From positions 1 to 64,000 of the forward strand of contig JADGEL010000003.1 in the NCBI GenBank assembly GCA_016744415.1: a stretch of DNA of 64,000 bases. The letters run 5' to 3'. Below the pieces are notes generated by a model that was not told the DNA's origin, made no database searches, and worked only from the letters and a program-made list of their open reading frames with translations. Positions 21,324-58,084 of this stretch are shown here, one piece after another. Origin of the DNA: Flavobacteriaceae bacterium (lineage in GTDB: Bacteria; Bacteroidota; Bacteroidia; Flavobacteriales; Flavobacteriaceae). Position numbers and translations under genes: made by a program. How positions within the stretch are numbered: the first letter of the stretch is position 1; every line of letters begins with the position of its first letter.

Positions 21324-21345
21324 TTTAGCTAAATCAATAGCTAAA
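21324..21345 (+). promoter_or_regulatory. Inverted repeat upstream of the darA leader
   Basis: TTTAGCTA at 21324-21331 and TAGCTAAA at 21338-21345 form a perfect 8-bp inverted repeat with a 6-nt spacer. It ends on the first base of the leader element. There is no T-run, so it is more likely an operator or RNA hairpin than a terminator. Confidence 0.45.
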
Positions 21346-21433
21346 TGAAACGAACATGCTAGAAAGTTTATGACCAAGAGGTTGAGAAATAGCGAACGGC
21401 ATGTGGCTTTTAAAAAACAATAAATATAAACAC
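21345..21433 (+). ncRNA. Conserved structured leader, copy A (darA)
   Basis: 89 nt from an ATGAAACGA motif to the base before the darA ATG. ACATGC pairs with GCATGT as outer stem, with a weak inner hairpin (TGACC/GGTTG, loop AAGA) between, then ATAGCGA before the 3' arm. The A-rich tail matches the copy in front of ackA almost base for base. A mini-ORF MKRTC-stop opens at 21345. The same element lies before 37433 (three copies) and ackA. I infer a cis-acting 5' leader; I do not recognise it as a described class. Confidence 0.6.
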
Positions 21434-22366
21434 ATGAAAAATGTACTTGTCGTTTATTACTCACAATCAGGACAATTATTAGAAATTGCTAAAAACGTAA
21501 TCAAAGACTTAGAGATCTCTCAAGAAGTAAACTTAACTTTTTACGAAATAAAGCTCAAAGATGATTTTCCTTTTCCATGGACAAAAGATGAGTTCTATGA
21601 TGCCTTTCCAGAAACTTTTTTACAGATCCCTTCTGAGTTATCCGATTTAGAAAATCCAATTTTAAAACAAAAATATGATTTGGTTTTTTTGGCATATCAG
21701 GTTTGGTATTTGTCCCCTGCTATTCCTATAAATTCCTTTTTAAAAAATGATGTTGCTAAAGAATTATTAGCAGACACTCCAGTCATAACTCTGATCGGAG
21801 CTAGAAATATGTGGATCCAAGCGCAAGAAAAAGTAAAGCGATTGTTAGTTGCAAATAATGCCAATTTGATTGGAAACATAGCTTTGGTAGATAGACATAT
21901 TAATCATATAAGTGTTATTACTATTGTACATTGGATGTTTAATGGAGATAAGAATAAACGTTTTATGGGGATATTTCCAAAACCTGGAGTATCACAAAAA
22001 GATATTGATGAATCCATTAAGTATAGTCCAATTATTTTAAATCATTTAGTGCAAAATGATTATGATGACTTACAAAAAAAACTATTAAAAATTGGAGCCG
22101 TAAAAATTAAACCTTTTTTAGTTTTGGTTGATAAAAGAGCCAATGTTATATTTAGTAAATGGGCAAATTTTATTCATGGTAAAGGAAGAGCAAAGGGAGT
22201 TGAGAGAAGGTCGTTAGTTACGATGTTTAGCAGGTATTTAATGTTTGCAATTTGGTTCATTGCACCCATCGTTTTTGTATTATTTTTGTTAACTTACGTC
22301 CCTTTAATTGGAAAAATTAGAAAGGATAAAAAATATTTTTCCTCAGTACAACTTAAAAAGAGCTAG
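21434..22366 (+). CDS. darA: Dialkylresorcinol aromatase DarA
   Basis: Flavodoxin-like oxidoreductase that, in DAR pathways, aromatises the cyclohexanedione made by DarB to the resorcinol. The FMN phosphate loop is YYSQSGQLLEIA at the N-terminus. The second loop is LAYQVWYLSPA and the third ITLIGARNMW. Near the C-terminus there is a transmembrane helix (about 280-305), which would place the enzyme at the inner membrane. The ATG at 21434 was chosen over a TTG-type start at 21401 because the conserved leader ends exactly here and the flavodoxin fold begins at once. It is followed after 9 bp by darB. Confidence 0.87.
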   Translation: MKNVLVVYYSQSGQLLEIAKNVIKDLEISQEVNLTFYEIKLKDDFPFPWTKDEFYDAFPETFLQIPSELSDLENPILKQKYDLVFLAYQVWYLSPAIPINSFLKNDVAKELLADTPVITLIGARNMWIQAQEKVKRLLVANNANLIGNIALVDRHINHISVITIVHWMFNGDKNKRFMGIFPKPGVSQKDIDESIKYSPIILNHLVQNDYDDLQKKLLKIGAVKIKPFLVLVDKRANVIFSKWANFIHGKGRAKGVERRSLVTMFSRYLMFAIWFIAPIVFVLFLLTYVPLIGKIRKDKKYFSSVQLKKS

Positions 22367-32574: not shown

Positions 32575-33633
32575 ATGAAAGATTGCTATATCAACGGAAT
32601 TGGATGTGTATCGGCTCAAGATTCAACTGTAGACTCAGCAATTGAAAACTATCGGGTTTTGACTGATAGAATTACGCATGCACGTAAACCTAATTACCGT
32701 GACTATATTAAACCTGCAATGATTCGTAGGATGTCTACTGGAGTTAAAATGGGTGTTGTTGCAGCATCTATTGCTATGAAAGAGGCAGAACTAGAAAATC
32801 CAGATGCTATCATTTCGGGTACAGGTTTAGGATGTTCTATTGACTCTGATAAATTCTTAAAAAAGATTGTTGATAATAATGAGCAGTTTTTAACTCCTAC
32901 GGCATTTATCCAATCTACACATAATACCGTTGGGGCACAAGTGGCTTTAGGCTTGAGGTGCAATGCCTATAACATTACCTATGTGCACAATGCCTTGTCT
33001 TTTGAATCTGCTATGCTAGATGCTCAATTAATGATTAGTGAGGGAGCGTCTAATATCTTATTTGGAGGCGTAGATGAACTGGGTGATTATACGACGAGCT
33101 TATTTGATTTGATAGATCATGTTAAAAAAGGTGAAGTTATTGAAAACGGAATTCTAAACTCAAATACCAAGGGAGCGATTTTTAGTGAAGGGGCTCAGTT
33201 TTTTGTTTTAGCCGATAATATATCTGATAATTCTTACGCAAAATTTATCGATGTTGCTATTTATAATGTATTACCACAAAACAGCATTGAAGAAAAGTTA
33301 GTTCAGTTTTTATCAGTAAATAATTTTGAAATCTCCGACATTGATGTTGTGATTTTAGGAACAAATGGTGATGTTAATTTTGATGGTATCTATTCAGATT
33401 TACAAGAATCAGTTTTTAAGAGTACACAGCAAATATGTTACAAACATTTATCAGGAGAGTACAACACAGCTTCTGGTTTTGGTTTTTGGACCGCTTGTAA
33501 TATATTGAAAAATCAATTGATTCCTAAGAACTTAATGTTGAATGAGATTAAGAATGTACCTGTAAAAAATATTTTGATATATAATCAGTATCGTTCAGAA
33601 AATCATAGCTTTACACTGCTAAGCTCATGTTAA
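32575..33633 (+). CDS. Chain-length-factor-like inactive ketosynthase
   Basis: 352 residues of ketosynthase fold, but the active-site Cys is Leu141 (HNALSFESA). The first His motif reads GTNGDVNFD and the second reads SGEYNTASG, with Glu in place of His. All three catalytic residues are therefore lost, as in chain length factors of type II systems. It is the partner of the active ketosynthase 3 bp upstream. It overlaps the following deacetylase by 7 bp. Confidence 0.83.
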   Translation: MKDCYINGIGCVSAQDSTVDSAIENYRVLTDRITHARKPNYRDYIKPAMIRRMSTGVKMGVVAASIAMKEAELENPDAIISGTGLGCSIDSDKFLKKIVDNNEQFLTPTAFIQSTHNTVGAQVALGLRCNAYNITYVHNALSFESAMLDAQLMISEGASNILFGGVDELGDYTTSLFDLIDHVKKGEVIENGILNSNTKGAIFSEGAQFFVLADNISDNSYAKFIDVAIYNVLPQNSIEEKLVQFLSVNNFEISDIDVVILGTNGDVNFDGIYSDLQESVFKSTQQICYKHLSGEYNTASGFGFWTACNILKNQLIPKNLMLNEIKNVPVKNILIYNQYRSENHSFTLLSSC

Positions 33634-34406
33634 GCTTTAGGAACGTAAATAGTGTAGTAGTTCTTCTTATTCTGATATTTTTTGGTTTAAGATTTAAGTT
33701 TGACATTGTTATTTGGTATATATTAATTCCAATAGTTGGTTGGTTGTTTTTAACAGCAATTGGTTCATTTAATATCAGCTTAAACTATTTTTTAAAAGCA
33801 ACACATCACAAACATTATACTGATAAAAATGTTATCGCTTTAACTTTAGATGATGGTCCTCATCCTGAATTTACTCCAAAAGTTTTAGAATTGTTAAAAG
33901 AGTTTAATAGCAAAGCAACTTTTTTTTTAATTGGTAAAAATGCTGAAAAGTATCCAGAGTTGGTAAAACAAATAATTGCTGATGGTCATGTTATTGGAAG
34001 TCATTCATATGCGCATACCAATAATTATGGTTTTCTATCACGAAATGGGGTTACCAAAGATATCATGAAATCTCAAAAAGTTTTGTTTGATATCACAAAG
34101 AGGAATGTTCAATTTTTTAGACCACCGTTTGGTGTGACCAATCCTAATATTGCGAGAGCTGTAAAAAACTTGAGTTTAAAAACTTTTGGTTGGAGTGTAC
34201 GATCTTATGATACGGTTGCCAAAAATTCAGAAACAGTTTTTAAAAAAGTAACGGCTAATTTAAAAAATGGAGATATCGTTTTATTACATGATACTAGTGA
34301 ACTGTCAGTAGATGCTTTAGAAAAAGTATTGACGCATTTAAAAATTAAAAACATGAATTCTGTAACTTTAACAACCCTATTCAATACTGATTCTTATGAA
34401 GTTTAA
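33627..34406 (+). CDS. Polysaccharide deacetylase family protein
   Basis: Two N-terminal hydrophobic stretches (about 5-50) anchor it in the inner membrane. The NodB domain (about 70-255) has ALTLDDGPHPEFT (catalytic Asp pair), GSHSYAHTN (zinc His pair), RPPFGV and LLHDTSE. All catalytic motifs are present. The substrate is unknown; deacetylases occur in several flexirubin loci, where an ester or amide may be cleaved. It overlaps both neighbouring genes. Confidence 0.87.
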   Translation: MLSFRNVNSVVVLLILIFFGLRFKFDIVIWYILIPIVGWLFLTAIGSFNISLNYFLKATHHKHYTDKNVIALTLDDGPHPEFTPKVLELLKEFNSKATFFLIGKNAEKYPELVKQIIADGHVIGSHSYAHTNNYGFLSRNGVTKDIMKSQKVLFDITKRNVQFFRPPFGVTNPNIARAVKNLSLKTFGWSVRSYDTVAKNSETVFKKVTANLKNGDIVLLHDTSELSVDALEKVLTHLKIKNMNSVTLTTLFNTDSYEV

Positions 34407-35031
34407 GCAAATAATTTCAACGGTTACAGTTTTTCTTTTTGTTGCAATTGGTTATGCTCAAGAAGTAAAGTTATCTCAACAAGAATCTAATGAGTTGAGA
34501 AATAATATCAAGATAAAATCAGAAGAGAAGAATTCTATTAAAAGTGAATTTATACAATTAAAGCATTTAGATTTTTTATCGAATGATATTGAATCAAGTG
34601 GAATACTTTATTACAAATCTCCAAATTCAATAAAGTGGGAATATCAAAATCCATTTAATTACAGCGCTACTTTTATTGGTGATAAGCTGTACATCAATGA
34701 TGCAGGTAAAAAAAGTGATTTGGATTTAAGTAGCAATAAATCATTTAAGTCGTTGAATGATTTGGTGGTAAGATCGGTAAAAGGAGATTTATTTGATGCT
34801 ACTGAATTTGAGATTTCCTATTTCAAAGATGCTCAAACTTATTCTGTTCACTTTATCCCAAAGGATAAAAAATTACGAGCATTTATTTCTGAGTTTATAA
34901 TTGTATTTGATATGAAGTTTTTTGAAGTAATTTCTGTAAAAATGTTAGAGAATTCAGAAGATTATACCCTACTTATTTTTAAAAATCAACAATTTAACCA
35001 ACCAATTTCTGATGCGGTATTTACTAATTAG
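34396..35031 (+). CDS. LolA-like outer-membrane lipoprotein carrier
   Basis: Signal peptide (about 1-22) and a LolA-type half-barrel of about 190 residues, with IESSGILYYKSPNSIKWEY in the position of the LolA strand pair. LolA carries lipoproteins through the periplasm; in aryl polyene and flexirubin loci a dedicated copy is thought to move the lipid-like pigment to the outer membrane. It overlaps the following lipoprotein gene by 20 bp. Confidence 0.85.
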   Translation: MKFKQIISTVTVFLFVAIGYAQEVKLSQQESNELRNNIKIKSEEKNSIKSEFIQLKHLDFLSNDIESSGILYYKSPNSIKWEYQNPFNYSATFIGDKLYINDAGKKSDLDLSSNKSFKSLNDLVVRSVKGDLFDATEFEISYFKDAQTYSVHFIPKDKKLRAFISEFIIVFDMKFFEVISVKMLENSEDYTLLIFKNQQFNQPISDAVFTN

Positions 35032-35617
35032 CTGTTGCTTTCTATTGGTTAGCTGTGGTTCGTATCCATCAAAAAATGGCTTTGTTGTTGATGAAGTTTC
35101 TTATCCAACAATCTTGAATCCTTATTTTTCAAATCCTGATTTAGATTACGTTTATAAGGCTCAGATTAAAATAAGTGATAATAATTTTGGTGGAATCTTA
35201 ATTGTCAAGAAAATAAATAATCAAGAGTATAGAGTTGTATTTACTACTGAAATGGGAAATAAACTTTTTGATTTCTCTTATATAAAGGATGGTTTTAAAG
35301 TGAATTCAATCCTAAAAGAAATGGATAAAAAGATGCTTGTCAATATATTAAAAAAAGATTTCAAGGTGTTGATAGAGGAGAATCCAATGAGAATAAATTC
35401 TTTTAGAAAGAACGATTATAGTATTGTACAAGCGCACATTTATAAGAAAGATCATTATTACTTTTTTAATAAAAACAGTTTAGAAAAAATCATTAGAGCT
35501 AAAAATAGAAATGAGAATACACGTTTTATTTTTTCGAATATTCATAATGATATCATCAAAAATATTCAGATATTACACAGCAAAATTAAACTAGAAATTA
35601 CACTTACAAAGATTTGA
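35012..35617 (+). CDS. Lipoprotein of the pigment export set
   Basis: Lipoprotein signal with the Cys in FLLVSCGSYP; about 185-residue mature part, basic and beta-rich (KKINNQEYRVVFTTE, then GNKLFDFSY). It resembles the small lipoproteins that accompany the LolA-like carrier in aryl polyene loci and may receive pigment at the outer membrane, like LolB. This role is inferred; there is no catalytic motif. It overlaps the carrier gene by 20 bp. Confidence 0.75.
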   Translation: MRYLLISCCFLLVSCGSYPSKNGFVVDEVSYPTILNPYFSNPDLDYVYKAQIKISDNNFGGILIVKKINNQEYRVVFTTEMGNKLFDFSYIKDGFKVNSILKEMDKKMLVNILKKDFKVLIEENPMRINSFRKNDYSIVQAHIYKKDHYYFFNKNSLEKIIRAKNRNENTRFIFSNIHNDIIKNIQILHSKIKLEITLTKI

Positions 35618-35624
35618 TTGAATA

Positions 35625-35993
35625 ATGTTACTAAAAGATTTTTATAAAATAAACGAAATAGATACTGTTGACGAAACAACTTCGGTTACTATTAGCATTA
35701 ACCAACATCACAAGATATTTAAGGGGCATTTCCCTAACAACCCAGTAATGCCAGGAGTTTGTATGATGCAAATCATTAAAGAAATTACTGAAGGAGTTGT
35801 TGGCGCAACTTTGTTTATGGAAAAATGTTCGAATGTAAAATTCATGGCATTGATTAACCCAGATATAAATAATGTTTTAAAGTTGGTGTTGCATATTTCT
35901 GAAACCGATGGAATCATAAAAGTTAAAAACACCACCCATTTTGATGAAACCTTGGCGTTAAAGTTAGTGGCGTATTATAAGAAAGTGGGGTAG
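35625..35993 (+). CDS. 3-hydroxyacyl-ACP dehydratase
   Basis: FabZ-type hotdog of 122 residues with the complete catalytic motif: HKIFKGHFPNNPVMPGV followed by the helix MMQIIKEI. It keeps the His that the two hotdog proteins at 23510 and 23940 lack, and is thus the most likely true dehydratase of the polyene cycle. It ends the second packed gene block of the locus. Confidence 0.88.
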   Translation: MLLKDFYKINEIDTVDETTSVTISINQHHKIFKGHFPNNPVMPGVCMMQIIKEITEGVVGATLFMEKCSNVKFMALINPDINNVLKLVLHISETDGIIKVKNTTHFDETLALKLVAYYKKVG

Positions 35994-36041
35994 TTTGTTG
36001 CACCAATATAATAGTCTAACATTTATCAGCAAACCAACCCA

Positions 36042-36566
36042 ATGAAACAAATAAGACTTAAAAGCATTTCAGACACTTATTTTGACAAAGCATGGGAGCT
36101 TTATGAAGAGGCTTTTCCTCTGGAAGAAAGAAGATTGCTTGATGCCCAAGCCAAATTAATGAGTGAATCAAAGTATCATTTTGATATATTAATTGTTGAA
36201 AACCAATTGGTAGGGTTTCTATTGTGGTGGGATTTAGAAACGTATAGGTACATAGGTCATTTTGCAACATCTAAGCAACAAAGGAATATGGGGATTGGAA
36301 AAATAATTCTTGAAAAGTTTATTAGTAATCATGACAAGCCAATTTTGTTAGAGGTAGAATTACCTGAGTCTGAACTCAAACAACGCAGAATAAAATTTTA
36401 TGAACGAATAGGGTTTAAATTGAATCAACACCACTATGAATTACCAGATTTTGAAGAGAATCAGACGCCTTTGCAACTACTATTAATGACCTATCCGAAT
36501 CTAATTTCTAAAAAGGATGTAGATCAGTTTGTAAAGAATTGTCATCCCGTAATTTTTGATATATAA
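36042..36566 (+). CDS. GNAT-family N-acetyltransferase
   Basis: 174 residues with the GNAT core: FLLWWDLETYRYIGHFATSK (beta4) and the acetyl-CoA loop RNMGIGKIILEKF, then ILLEVELPE and RIKFYERIGFK. It starts 48 bp after the dehydratase. It is not a known flexirubin gene, so probably a resident or inserted gene; substrate unknown. Confidence 0.85.
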   Translation: MKQIRLKSISDTYFDKAWELYEEAFPLEERRLLDAQAKLMSESKYHFDILIVENQLVGFLLWWDLETYRYIGHFATSKQQRNMGIGKIILEKFISNHDKPILLEVELPESELKQRRIKFYERIGFKLNQHHYELPDFEENQTPLQLLLMTYPNLISKKDVDQFVKNCHPVIFDI

Positions 36567-36580
36567 TCCAACCAAATAAG

Positions 36581-37069
36581 ATGTTCCTAAGAATAGAAAA
36601 TTCACACAAAAAGAAACTTGTTGGTTTGCAGCGTAAAATGACTTTTGAAAGTATTCCACAAGAAACTGTGGTTTTATGGAAACAATTTATGCCGTTAAGA
36701 AAACATATCACCAATACAGTAGACGCTAATTTTTATTCATTGCAAGTATATGATAGCCTTTTAAAAATACAAGAAGTTAAAGGCACAGATGAATTTACAA
36801 AGTGGGCATTGGTAGAGGTTATCAATTTTGAGAATGTTCAGAATACTATGGAATCATTTGAATTAGATGGTGGTTTGTACGCAGTTTTTCTTCACAAAGG
36901 TTTGGGGAGTGAGTTTGCAAAAACAATGAATTATATTTTTAGAGAATGGTTGCCGAAATCTGACTATACACTTGACCATCGTCCACATTTTGAGTTGTTG
37001 GGTGCAAAGTATAAAAATAACGATCCTAGCTCAGAAGAAGAAGTTTGGATTCCTATAAAAGAAAAATAA
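36581..37069 (+). CDS. GyrI-like small-molecule-binding protein
   Basis: Stand-alone GyrI-like / AraC effector-binding domain, 162 residues. It has the two pseudo-symmetric halves: KKLVGLQRKMTFESIPQ and GGLYAVFLHKG, ending in HFELLGAKYK. No DNA-binding domain. Such proteins bind hydrophobic or cationic small molecules. It follows the GNAT gene by 14 bp and may be co-expressed with it. Confidence 0.8.
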   Translation: MFLRIENSHKKKLVGLQRKMTFESIPQETVVLWKQFMPLRKHITNTVDANFYSLQVYDSLLKIQEVKGTDEFTKWALVEVINFENVQNTMESFELDGGLYAVFLHKGLGSEFAKTMNYIFREWLPKSDYTLDHRPHFELLGAKYKNNDPSSEEEVWIPIKEK

Positions 37070-37082
37070 ATTAGTTGATAAT

Positions 37083-37123
37083 GCGATTCCGACAAAGTGA
37101 CAGTTGAAGCGACGAGGAATCTC
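37083..37123 (-). repeat. Dispersed flavobacterial intergenic repeat
   Basis: On the minus strand it reads GAGATTCCTCGTCGCTTCA and on to CGGAATCGCA. GATTCC at 37085 and GGAATC at 37116 can pair. It looks like the small intergenic repeats that occur many times in flavobacterial genomes; no second copy lies in this window. Confidence 0.4.
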
Positions 37124-37128
37124 ATATT

Positions 37129-37161
37129 TTGTAGAAAATTATAAATAAAATAGTATCTTGG
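37129..37161 (+). promoter_or_regulatory. Candidate promoter of the triplicated leader
   Basis: TTG at 37129-37131 and TATCTTGG at 37154-37161 (one mismatch to TAnnTTTG) with a 22-bp spacer. Transcription would start near 37166, right at the first leader unit. The promoter is not repeated inside the later units. Confidence 0.4.
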
Positions 37162-37165
37162 GCAC

Positions 37166-37254
37166 ATGAACCGAGCATGCTAAAAAGTTATCATTTATTG
37201 GGAATGGTTTATAGCGATTAGCATGTGACCTATTTAATAAAATAATAAAGACAC
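37166..37254 (+). ncRNA. Conserved structured leader, copy B1
   Basis: Outer stem GCATGCTA with TAGCATGT (8 bp, one G-U), inner hairpin ATCATT/AATGGT, conserved ATAGCGA, A-rich tail ending ACAC before the next ATG. A mini-ORF MNRAC-stop opens at the first base. Same family as copies before darA and ackA. Confidence 0.6.
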
Positions 37255-37343
37255 ATGAACCGAGCATGCTAAAAAATTATCATTTATTGAGAATGATTTA
37301 TAGCGATTAGCATGTGACCTATTTAATAAAATAATAAAGACAC
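37255..37343 (+). ncRNA. Conserved structured leader, copy B2
   Basis: As B1, with the inner hairpin ATCATT/AATGAT fully Watson-Crick. Mini-ORF MNRAC-stop conserved. Confidence 0.6.
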
Positions 37344-37432
37344 ATGAACCGAGCATGCTAAAAAGTTATCATTTATTGAGAATGATTTATAGCGATTAGC
37401 ATGTGACCTATTTAATAAAATAATAAAGACAC
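37344..37432 (+). ncRNA. Conserved structured leader, copy B3
   Basis: As B2 apart from one base; its tail runs directly into the ATG at 37433. Mini-ORF MNRAC-stop conserved. Confidence 0.6.
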
Positions 37433-37927
37433 ATGAAACTTAGCATTTTAATAATTAGTCTTTTTGTAACAGTTATCAATTTTGATATTGAAGAAATAAG
37501 AGCATTGTACAAACAAACGGATGGCTCTAAGGACAATACAATTGTGTTGTTTAATAAATTGCAGTCCGTATCAGAAAAAGATGGGAATGTGTTGTTGGCC
37601 TATAAAGGAGCTTCAACAGCAATGAAAGGGAGGTTTGAAAAAGGCGCAAAGCAAAAAACAACTATTTTTAAAGAAGGCATTGCTTTGGTTGAAACAGCTT
37701 TGCTTAAAGAACCTAAAAATCTGGAAATTCGATTTATACGTTTGAGTATCCAACAGAACTCTCCAAAGCTTTTAAAGTATAAGAAAAACATTGATGAAGA
37801 TAAGAATTTCATTTTGTCTAATTATGAAAAAATTAAATCTAACAAACTTAGAAACTACATAAAAGACTATATTTTAAATTCAGATAATTTTACTGACGAC
37901 GAAAAAAGAGTAACTTCACAACCTTAA
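37433..37927 (+). CDS. Exported helical protein of unknown function
   Basis: 164 residues. The N-terminus is a short hydrophobic signal-like segment (about 1-17); the rest is charged and all-helical, with TPR-like helices (LLAYKGASTAMKGRF, then GIALVETALLKEPKNLEIRF) and a conserved-looking NSPKLLKYKKNI turn. No enzyme motif. Three tandem copies of the conserved leader stand directly upstream. It lies 9 bp before the glycosyltransferase-DUF2062 gene and starts the third gene block of the pigment locus. Confidence 0.75.
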   Translation: MKLSILIISLFVTVINFDIEEIRALYKQTDGSKDNTIVLFNKLQSVSEKDGNVLLAYKGASTAMKGRFEKGAKQKTTIFKEGIALVETALLKEPKNLEIRFIRLSIQQNSPKLLKYKKNIDEDKNFILSNYEKIKSNKLRNYIKDYILNSDNFTDDEKRVTSQP

Positions 37928-37936
37928 TTATTAGCT

Positions 37937-39127
37937 GTGATTGTGACTAACCATCAAGAAATTTTGACCGAGCTTTCTGATTTAAAATGCTGCGTTTTAA
38001 TTCCTACTTATAATAATGAAAAGACACTACAAAAAGTAATTGAGTCTGTCTTGGCATATACATCAAATGCTATTATAATTAACGATGGGAGTACAGACTC
38101 CACTTCTAATATTTTAGAAATCTTTCCAAATCTTTCACAAATACATTTTCAAAAAAATAAAGGAAAGGGAATGGCATTAAGAGCAGGTTTTAAAAAAGCT
38201 TTTTCTGATGGATTTGACTATGCAATTACAATTGATTCTGATGGGCAGCACTATGCTGACGACATTCCTATATTTGTTAATGAACTTAAAAAAAATGAAA
38301 AAACCTTATTAATTGGCTCACGTAATATGGCACATAAATCTGTTCCCAAAAACAGTAGTTTTGGAAACAAGTTTTCTAATTTTTGGTTTTGGGCTGAGAC
38401 AGGAATTAAACTTAATGACACACAATCTGGTTTTAGGTTATATCCATTAAAAGTGATGGATGAGATTCCGTTCTATACATCAAAGTTCGAGTTTGAAATT
38501 GAGTCCATTGTAAAAGCATCTTGGAGAGGAGTAGAGGTGAAAAATGTACCGATTAAGGTGTTGTATAATGACGAACGTGTTTCACATTTTAGGCCCTATA
38601 AAGACTTTGTTCGAATTAGCGTTTTAAATACTTGGCTGATTTTGGTTGCTTTGTTGTATATAAAACCGCGAGACCTTTTTAGAAAGATGCGTAAAAAAGG
38701 TTTCAAGAAATTTTTTGTAGAAAATGTATTAAAAAGTAATGACAGTCCGAAGAAAAAATCAATCTCAATAGCTTTGGGAGTCTTTTTAGGGCTGACTCCT
38801 TTTTGGGGTTTTCAGGGTATTTTAAGCTTGTCATTAGCAGCGGTTTTTAAATTGAATAAAGCTATTGCTTTTGCATTTTCTAACATTAGCATTCCGCCAT
38901 TAATCCCTTTTATTATCTATGGAAGTTTAGAATTAGGAGGATTAGTTTTTGGCACCGAAATAAAAATTGATTTTGACAATATTGTTGAAAATGTTAAATT
39001 GCTAAAACAAGTAAAAGAGTTTTTAGTAGGTAGCTTTATCTTAGCAACATTAGTATCTATCTTATTTGGTACAATAAGTTATTTGTATTTAACTTTAAGA
39101 GCAAAACGCATGCATGAACATATTTAA
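37937..39127 (+). CDS. Family 2 glycosyltransferase fused to DUF2062
   Basis: The N-terminal GT2 domain (about 15-230) has VLIPTYNNEKTLQKVIESV, then IINDGSTDST and the DxD-type TIDSDGQH. The C-terminal part (about 265-390) is a DUF2062 membrane domain with GVFLGLTPFWGFQG and several helices. Start GTG (37937); no ATG is available before the GT2 fold. Such fusions stand in aryl polyene and DAR loci next to the MMPL gene. The acceptor may be a lipid or pigment head group. It overlaps the MMPL gene by 14 bp. Confidence 0.87.
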   Translation: MIVTNHQEILTELSDLKCCVLIPTYNNEKTLQKVIESVLAYTSNAIIINDGSTDSTSNILEIFPNLSQIHFQKNKGKGMALRAGFKKAFSDGFDYAITIDSDGQHYADDIPIFVNELKKNEKTLLIGSRNMAHKSVPKNSSFGNKFSNFWFWAETGIKLNDTQSGFRLYPLKVMDEIPFYTSKFEFEIESIVKASWRGVEVKNVPIKVLYNDERVSHFRPYKDFVRISVLNTWLILVALLYIKPRDLFRKMRKKGFKKFFVENVLKSNDSPKKKSISIALGVFLGLTPFWGFQGILSLSLAAVFKLNKAIAFAFSNISIPPLIPFIIYGSLELGGLVFGTEIKIDFDNIVENVKLLKQVKEFLVGSFILATLVSILFGTISYLYLTLRAKRMHEHI

Positions 39128-56813: not shown

Positions 56814-57998
56814 CTATTTTACCAACTCAAAAGATTGCTTTGCAATCTCAACCTCTTCATTTGTAGGAATCACCAATACTTTAGTTTTTGAATTTTCTGT
56901 ATTAATTTCTCTGATTAATTTATCTCTAATTTCATTTTTTGCAGCGTCTAATTCTATTCCGAAAACAGACATGTCTGCACAAACAAGTTGACGCATTGTT
57001 GAAGAATTCTCGCCAATGCCAGCTGTAAATACTATAGCATCCAATCCGTTTAGTGCTGCAGTATAAGCTCCGATATATTTTTTAATTCGGTAAGCATTCA
57101 TATCTAAGGCAAGTTGACATTGCGTATTTCCATTTTCTGCTTCCGCTTCAATTTCTCGCATATCACTAAAACCTGTCAACCCAAACATACCACTTTCTTT
57201 TTGTAGCATTGTATTGACTTCATCTAAAGAATAATCTAAATTATTGACTAAATGAAAAATGAGTGAGTGGTCTATATCTCCACTTCTTGTACCCATCATC
57301 AATCCGTTGATAGGTCCAAAACCAAGGGAGTGATCAATACTTTTTCCATTTTTAATGGCGGTCATACTACACCCATTTCCTAAATGTATCGTAATGATAT
57401 TTGAGTTTATTAATCCTAAGTATTCAATGGCTTTTTCTGAAACATATTTATGGCTTGTTCCGTGAAAACCATACAACCTAATATTGTGATCATCAAAAAA
57501 TTTTGTAGGGATTGCATATTGAGAAGCCTTAGCAGGGATACTTTGGTGAAATGCCGTATCAAAAACTGCAACCTGAGTTGCCTTTTTAAAGATTTCTTCG
57601 GCGATTACGATTCCCTCTAAATTCGGAGGATTATGTTGTGGAGCCAAAGTAAATAACTCCTTGATTTTATCTTTTACTTTTTGATTTATGGCAACTGTTT
57701 TAGAAAAAGCACATCCACCATGAACCACACGGTGACCAACGGCATTGATTTCATTAGTAGATGAAATGACACCTAATTTATCATCCAATAAAAGCTGTAC
57801 TACTTTTTCTAATCCAACTTTATGATTAGGAATATCAAGAACATCATCAATTGTATGAGTATCAGATTTAAAATGAATTTCTGAATTGTTTAAACCAATT
57901 CGTTCTACCAATCCAGAGCAAATAACTTTCTCCTGTGGCATTTGAAATAGTTGGTATTTGATAGATGAACTACCAGAGTTTATTACTAAAATTTTCAT
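56814..57998 (-). CDS. ackA: Acetate kinase
   Basis: Interconverts acetyl phosphate and ADP with acetate and ATP in the cytoplasm. The N-terminal ILVINSGSSSIKYQ, the VHGGCAFS segment, DTAFHQS with its Arg partners and HLGNGCSMTAI are all present. 394 residues, normal. It is downstream of pta on the same strand; the 87-bp gap between them consists of the conserved leader element. Confidence 0.96.
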   Translation of the reverse strand: MKILVINSGSSSIKYQLFQMPQEKVICSGLVERIGLNNSEIHFKSDTHTIDDVLDIPNHKVGLEKVVQLLLDDKLGVISSTNEINAVGHRVVHGGCAFSKTVAINQKVKDKIKELFTLAPQHNPPNLEGIVIAEEIFKKATQVAVFDTAFHQSIPAKASQYAIPTKFFDDHNIRLYGFHGTSHKYVSEKAIEYLGLINSNIITIHLGNGCSMTAIKNGKSIDHSLGFGPINGLMMGTRSGDIDHSLIFHLVNNLDYSLDEVNTMLQKESGMFGLTGFSDMREIEAEAENGNTQCQLALDMNAYRIKKYIGAYTAALNGLDAIVFTAGIGENSSTMRQLVCADMSVFGIELDAAKNEIRDKLIREINTENSKTKVLVIPTNEEVEIAKQSFELVK

Positions 57999-58084
57999 GT
58001 GTCTTTATTTATTGTTTTTTAAGGTCACATGCAGTTTGCTATTGTCATCTTTTTTGTGATAAACAGATTGTATGCTCGTTTCAT
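57999..58084 (-). ncRNA. Conserved structured leader, copy C (ackA)
   Basis: On the minus strand it runs from ATGAAACGAGCATAC to the base before the ackA ATG (86 nt). ATAGCAA and GCATGTGACCT are followed by the same A-rich tail as before darA. It fills the whole pta-ackA gap. The outer stem GCATAC/GCATGT has one mismatch; the inner hairpin is TTATC/GATGA. Here the mini-ORF is longer (about 19 codons) and ends at the conserved ATGTGA. Confidence 0.6.

Follow-up and report, generated by a model that had tools for sequence, protein, structure and literature searches.

Elements of the IS200/IS605 group are described as having guide/target tetranucleotide interactions at both ends and subterminal hairpins; short guides inside the element base-pair with the target next to the left end and with the final bases at the right end (PMC6006769). 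In the Bacteroidetes, RAYTs of subclass 2.6 are flanked by atypical secondary structures that have copies elsewhere in the genome (PMC6006769), and the GTAG and CGTC tags define the two super-families of REP sequences, which are 20-40 bp long (PMC3733652). Direct repeats of the seven-base unit TAACTGA are found in Beggiatoaceae, Cyanobacteria, and a few Bacteroidetes; they are described as lying just upstream of start codons, at genes without common function and with a patchy distribution, and are not known to have hairpins or empty sites (PMC4679880).

The first 64,000 nucleotides of contig JADGEL010000003.1 from a Flavobacteriaceae bacterium (GCA_016744415.1), the window of this study, contain at positions 37166-37432 three head-to-tail repeat units directly before a gene. 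The original prediction read them as a triplication of that gene's own leader, giving steeper or multi-input control. We argue instead that the units are very probably copies of a small mobile element, non-autonomous and targeted to ATGAA, a view drawn from comparisons between genomes. This element lies just upstream of starts of functionally unrelated genes in marine flavobacteria and is patchy in its distribution, as are the TAACTGA repeats, differing from the latter, as described, in unit length, in its hairpins, and in its empty sites. As in the REP/RAYT system, a genome carries numerous short hairpin repeats that are scattered, lie mostly outside genes, and are patchy among relatives; unlike REPs, neither the family consensus nor the window units carry GTAG or CGTC, the element is two to four times longer, and its orientation at start codons is fixed. 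It is short, non-coding, and dispersed like a MITE, with an ATGAA direct repeat at its two edges, but no terminal inverted repeat was detected in the unit. Finally, a covarying stem over the start codon recalls structured 5' leaders of the riboswitch type, from which the element differs in the lack of a common gene function, in the lack of general conservation among orthologs, and in its precise empty sites.

The array and its empty counterpart

The array comprises three 89-bp units on the forward strand: unit 1 at 37166-37254, unit 2 at 37255-37343 (97% identical to unit 1), and unit 3 at 37344-37432 (99% identical to unit 2 and 98% to unit 1). Tandem Repeats Finder reports a period of 89, 3.1 copies, 97% matches, and a score of 529, the remaining two tandem arrays of the window scoring 51 and 53; each unit also matches the family model described below. 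The repeat finder and the pairwise identities bear out the predicted arrangement to the exact coordinate. Every unit starts with ATGAA and ends with ACAC, and the ATGAA of the gene at 37433 occupies the slot of a would-be fourth unit, so that the phasing proposed between units and gene is likewise real. Units 2 and 3 are the closest pair, in agreement with the claim that the last duplication was recent, and unit 1 has drifted in its inner hairpin while still pairing, as had been noticed: it has GGG/GGT for the GAG/GAT of the other units, with pairing kept through G-U.

The host gene (37433-37927, forward strand) encodes a protein of 164 aa with a hydrophobic N-terminal segment, to which a Pfam search returned no match; its start codon is the right end of the element. 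The array sits in a run of genes (32575-39127) resembling an aryl-polyene-type cluster, with a ketosynthase, a FabA/ApeI-like dehydratase, a LolA-like carrier, a DUF2062 glycosyltransferase, and a large exporter.

A single concatenated query served to find the orthologs of 14 genes within the genus, and their upstream regions were compared. At the window locus the sister genome (G007) is syntenic at ~82-85% identity and has the same upstream gene, the first 60 nt of the host gene being 85% identical to the ortholog, and it holds zero units: the direct junction of ...AAATAAAATAGTACCTTTCACAC with ATGAAATTAAGC in the sister genome corresponds in the window to ...AAATAAAATAGTATCTTGGGCAC, 267 bp of array, and ATGAAACTTAGC. 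On this alignment, the ATGAA of unit 1 is inferred to mark the original start-codon position of the gene. The promoter-like sequence was correctly assigned to the first unit alone, upstream of which it stands; it is also found in the unit-less sister genome, and therefore belongs to the gene's own upstream region and not to the repeat. The native leader of the gene at 37433 is the sequence preceding unit 1.

Dispersal, further empty sites, and other arrays

Searching the same genome with a single array unit brings up diverged copies at other places, and a sequence-only family model (R1) built from eleven copies finds 34 in the 3.13 Mb of this genome. The array units are 68-78% identical to seven of the dispersed copies from this genome. 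Among 13 congeners, copy numbers range from 0 to 73 (e.g., 73, 62, 20, 0, 1, and 2); G006 and G012 are rich in copies, and G005 and G009 have none. Two further copies lie in the window: one on the forward strand at 21345-21433, at the start of the gene beginning at 21434 and with an empty site in the sister genome, and one on the reverse strand at 57999-58084, at the start of the acetate kinase gene ackA (ATG at 57998). The ackA site, filled in the window's own genome, is empty in four congeners (G007, G008, G005, and G010), which favors insertion over loss.

Comparable filled and empty states are seen at other genes. At trkA, G003 carries the element and G011 has an empty site, all 40 of 40 left-flank bases being identical, and the flanks of the copy at 21345 and of the copy at tolC match their empty sites at 95% and 90%, respectively. 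In all filled/empty pairs the insert measures 86-91 bp, or 267 bp (3 x 89) at the window locus. Upstream DNA can be aligned in seven pairs, and there the left flank is 78-100% identical to the empty site and the element tail 45-58%; in four of the 11 pairs (cobO, truB, exbD, and oxyg), divergence or rearrangement of the upstream DNA prevents an independent placement of the left edge. ATGAA is left on both sides of each insertion, a state in which a target duplication looks the same as an element end that carries those five bases. Mobility is inferred from the empty sites, the dispersal, and the patchiness of what we regard as a mobile element.

The distribution of the element extends beyond the genus. 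When 84,980 species genomes were scanned for the pattern, more than 100 stretches came up; the 80 matches listed come from Flavobacteriaceae or other Flavobacteriales where titled so, plus a few metagenome-assembled genomes titled only Bacteroidetes. Under strict filters, which make these counts lower bounds, the element is present in at least 8 of 396 genomes sampled across the order and at least 6 of 296 sampled across the phylum, and of the latter six, two lie outside the family and one of these outside the class. The element reaches the gathering score of no family in Rfam 15, has no match in phage, plasmid, and viral collections, and a search of the literature for its sequence and for insertion at start codons found no description. 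Several copies in genome G006 (L321, L323, L324, and L328) carry an inner segment of ~45-50 bp, GAAATCGAAGATTCAACGCCTCCTTTAAAAACAATAAACAAGGTGAGTTAATGA, in the P1 hairpin region described below, and apparently represent a longer sub-family that spread with it. Single copies at L092, L119, L094, and L299 contain inserted GC-rich palindromes (e.g., TCCCGACGCTTCGGGAGCG and GCCGTGCCTGCGGCAGGCAGGCG) or short repeats of other kinds, which gives the impression that a different repeat has jumped into the element.

Tandem arrangement, too, recurs. An array in G006 has three units, a 97% identical pair and a third at 71-72%; two units each are found at ftcd in G007 (78% identity), in Lutibacter NORP71 (93%), and in G012 (97%), and a second family of the order has an array of at least two units. 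The suggested variation in copy number is therefore seen, with three units at the window gene and none in the sister genome, and two or three units at other genes in relatives. Unlike neighboring units suggest a second insertion at the regenerated ATGAA, and near-identical ones suggest local duplication. The units of the window array are nearly identical to each other but reach no more than 78% identity with the dispersed copies compared, which argues for duplication over three separate insertions: the lineage probably gained a single unit by insertion, and local tandem duplication then raised the number to three.

This local step should be distinguished from the idea that the whole array is a neutral tandem duplication, by slippage or misassembly, of a leader specific to this gene. 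The near identity of the units would be expected under it, but the unit is not gene-specific, as the dispersed family makes plain, arrays of two or more units stand at other genes in several genomes, and the sister genome holds no unit where such an origin had been expected to leave one. We consider this origin very improbable, and the recurrence of tandem arrays in several genomes makes an assembly artefact at the window locus unlikely. The proposal that the gene's own leader was multiplied for the sake of its control is not supported in view of the dispersed family, the unrelated genes that it precedes, and the precise empty sites; a regulatory side-effect of the units on the gene is possible.

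Folding of the element over the start codon

The family consensus runs ATGAA-ACGAGCATGYTAAAA-hairpin-AATAGCGAACAG-CATGTG-ACC-A-rich-CACATGAA, and past ATGAA the left flank shows no motif except A/T richness. Its fold consists of two hairpins, P1 in the left half and P2 reaching the right edge. In unit 3, on the forward strand, P1 spans 37357-37393, with GCTA (37357-37360) opposite TAGC (37390-37393), the pairing obtained when the corresponding part of unit 1 is folded as DNA, and encloses an inner hairpin seen in the RNA folds of the units (ATCATT, 37368-37373, with AATGAT, 37381-37386). P2, placed by covariation as well as folding, spans 37400-37435 and pairs CATGTG (37400-37405) with CACATG (37430-37435), the last three bases of which are the start codon of the window gene.

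The strongest long-range covariation in the element links the variable base of CATNTG with that of CANATG. Over 111 copies this pair is G-C in 85, G-T in seven, C-G in six, A-T in one, T-A in one, and unpaired in 11, and the covariation is also seen over a set of 81 copies. The eight compensated non-GC pairs were reached by none of 20,000 permutations, in a test that ignores relatedness. Compensated versions of P2 occur in different lineages (Ichthyobacteriaceae, Mariniflexile, Lutibacter, Arenibacter, Polaribacter, Gelidibacter, and G554, a genome of another class), and further families of the phylum also have the CATCTG/CAGATG version. Three divergent copies fold alike even though their sequences differ, with P1 formed by GCATGAG/CTCATGC, ATGCCCA/TGGGCAT, or GCAT/ATGC and P2 by CATCTG/CAGATG or CATGTG/CACATG. 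The window unit folded as DNA gives P1 (GCTA/TAGC) and P2, though little better than shuffled sequences (z -1.4). When the bases of the following start codon are left off and the unit is folded as RNA, it forms a longer alternative, GCATGCTAA/TTAGCATGT, which is peculiar to the window copy, where GATTA replaces the GAACA of most copies. No inverted repeats of 12 nt or more were reported within a unit.

An ORF begins directly after the element in 126 of the 140 places examined; of the 14 exceptions, six arise from recounting the inner units of the window array in overlapping loci. Within the window's own genome, 31 of 32 element sites are at an ORF start, and the remaining site has GTG. Nearly all copies are in sense orientation relative to the gene at whose start they sit. 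Among 16 further copies in G006, 13 are at gene starts (one of these a 47-aa frame), one precedes a degenerate second unit, and two are insertions at an intergenic ATGAA that starts no gene; from the last two, the target appears to be the pentamer ATGAA as such. The element, ~86-95 bp long, would insert at ATGAA, which at nearly every site means the first five bases of a gene; the old ATGAA would then stay at the left edge, and the gene would go on from a second, identical one at the right edge, with the A-rich stretch and ACAC before it, so that the reading frame would retain a start codon. At several loci (L020, L061, L077, L089, and others) an upstream ATG or TTG frame runs through the element into the gene, and automatic annotation may have wrongly extended these proteins.

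The database search of proteins covered those of the window, and genes at other copies were named from their translations. On this reading we take the downstream genes to include ackA, aroQ (dehydroquinase), truB, fmt, dnaN, ruvC, gapA (GAPDH), argF, ExbD, TonB receptors, and response regulators. They have no common functional theme, and a regulon was rejected on that ground. This bears on the view of the element as a cis-regulatory RNA, a riboswitch-like or protein-binding leader in which P2 opens or closes over the start and tandem copies sharpen the response of a regulon. It is favored by the two-hairpin RNA fold, whose covarying stem takes in the start codon, by the sense orientation at starts, and by the few orthologs that share the leader across genomes (dnaN, queD, and crcB). 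Against it, besides the missing theme, stand sister species that lack the leader at the same gene with the upstream region intact, a copy number that varies from 0 to 73 inside one genus, the lack of an Rfam match, and copies that precede no gene. We judge a regulatory RNA of this kind improbable. An upstream mini-ORF (MKRAC-stop in 40 of 106 copies) was likewise rejected, as a functional leader peptide, for the main explanation, because 17 of 106 copies have no ATG and in many the frame stays open with no stop.

A different possibility accepts mobility and adds to it: copies would be kept since their A-rich translation start and P2 tune the gene, making the element a portable expression module. 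By a crude count of available sites, 27 ATGAA pentamers in the window are at starts and 16 at other intergenic positions; the start-codon sites of the element exceed this availability, which could mean selection for function at starts. The preservation of P2 in most copies points the same way, as does the occupation of the same genes across genera, aroQ being occupied in this genome and in Formosa and what is apparently the same 5'-nucleotidase-like gene start in Gelidibacter and G231 (L104 and L366). Such shared occupation would reflect either repeated targeting of one start codon or old shared insertions. However, much of the excess may be survival, insertions inside genes being lost, and truncated copies exist. 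The Bacteroidetes phylum does not use Shine-Dalgarno sequences. In Flavobacterium johnsoniae, an A at -3 aids initiation and structure hinders it (PMC6847099), rules by which the C at -3 and the closed start that the element imposes, albeit in an A-rich context, are unfavorable. We rate an expression module as an unlikely, though appreciable, addition to the mobile element; by analogy with the F. johnsoniae rules, the start codon within P2 and the C at -3 would be expected to lower or alter translation as a side-effect of insertion.

Proposed mode of movement and its implications

If the element is mobile, IS200/IS605 offers, by analogy, the closest working model, and membership in that group is not claimed. 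Like those elements, it has a hairpin in each half without long terminal inverted repeats having been found, a fixed short target (ATGAA at both edges and in the empty sites), subterminal P1 and P2 in the folds of three divergent versions and of the window unit, and a terminal CANATG that pairs with an internal CATNTG. Unlike them, it is only ~90 bp long, has ATGAA on both sides, and has an A-rich loop after CATNTG without a consistent hairpin between CATNTG and CANATG. A search for Y1_Tnp in the window's own genome found none despite its 34 element copies, and among 30 Y1 loci from relatives no Y1 transposase or RAYT gene is flanked by the element. A tentative proposal, which we hold to be somewhat less probable than its negation, is that the element moves by hairpin-guided single-strand cutting and joining of the IS200/IS605 type, with CATNTG guiding the cut at the right end.

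A Y1 transposase as the mobilizer was set aside, given that its genes show no clear correlation with copy number and have no flanking copies. A reverse transcriptase was rejected as well, with no match in a search of the window's own genome and no correlation with copy number. An autonomous version, sought through unmatched left halves in G006 and G012, was not among the copies recovered, which were only truncated, internally enlarged, or tandem. At one locus in G012 (L213, contig 10, 215828-216169), a Y1_Tnp-like domain lies in an ORF overlapping a restriction-modification methylase-like ORF; the methylase-like sequence continues downstream of the domain, as if the latter had been inserted into the methylase.

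We know of no description of mobile DNA that lands exactly on start codons and supplies the replacement. The mobile element may belong to a previously undescribed kind, with a start-codon pentamer as its target and a right end that is at once recombination site and new translation start, a prospect that we place only slightly short of an even chance. Under that reading, housekeeping genes would be invaded without being killed, and the mover would be an enzyme not yet recognized.

If this is true, these bacteria would possess a natural system of movable translation starts at dozens of unrelated genes. Conserved hairpin leaders that emerge from comparative RNA searches can, on this evidence, be mobile elements. 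Gene starts at element loci may also be mis-annotated, since several copies join the gene to an upstream start frame.
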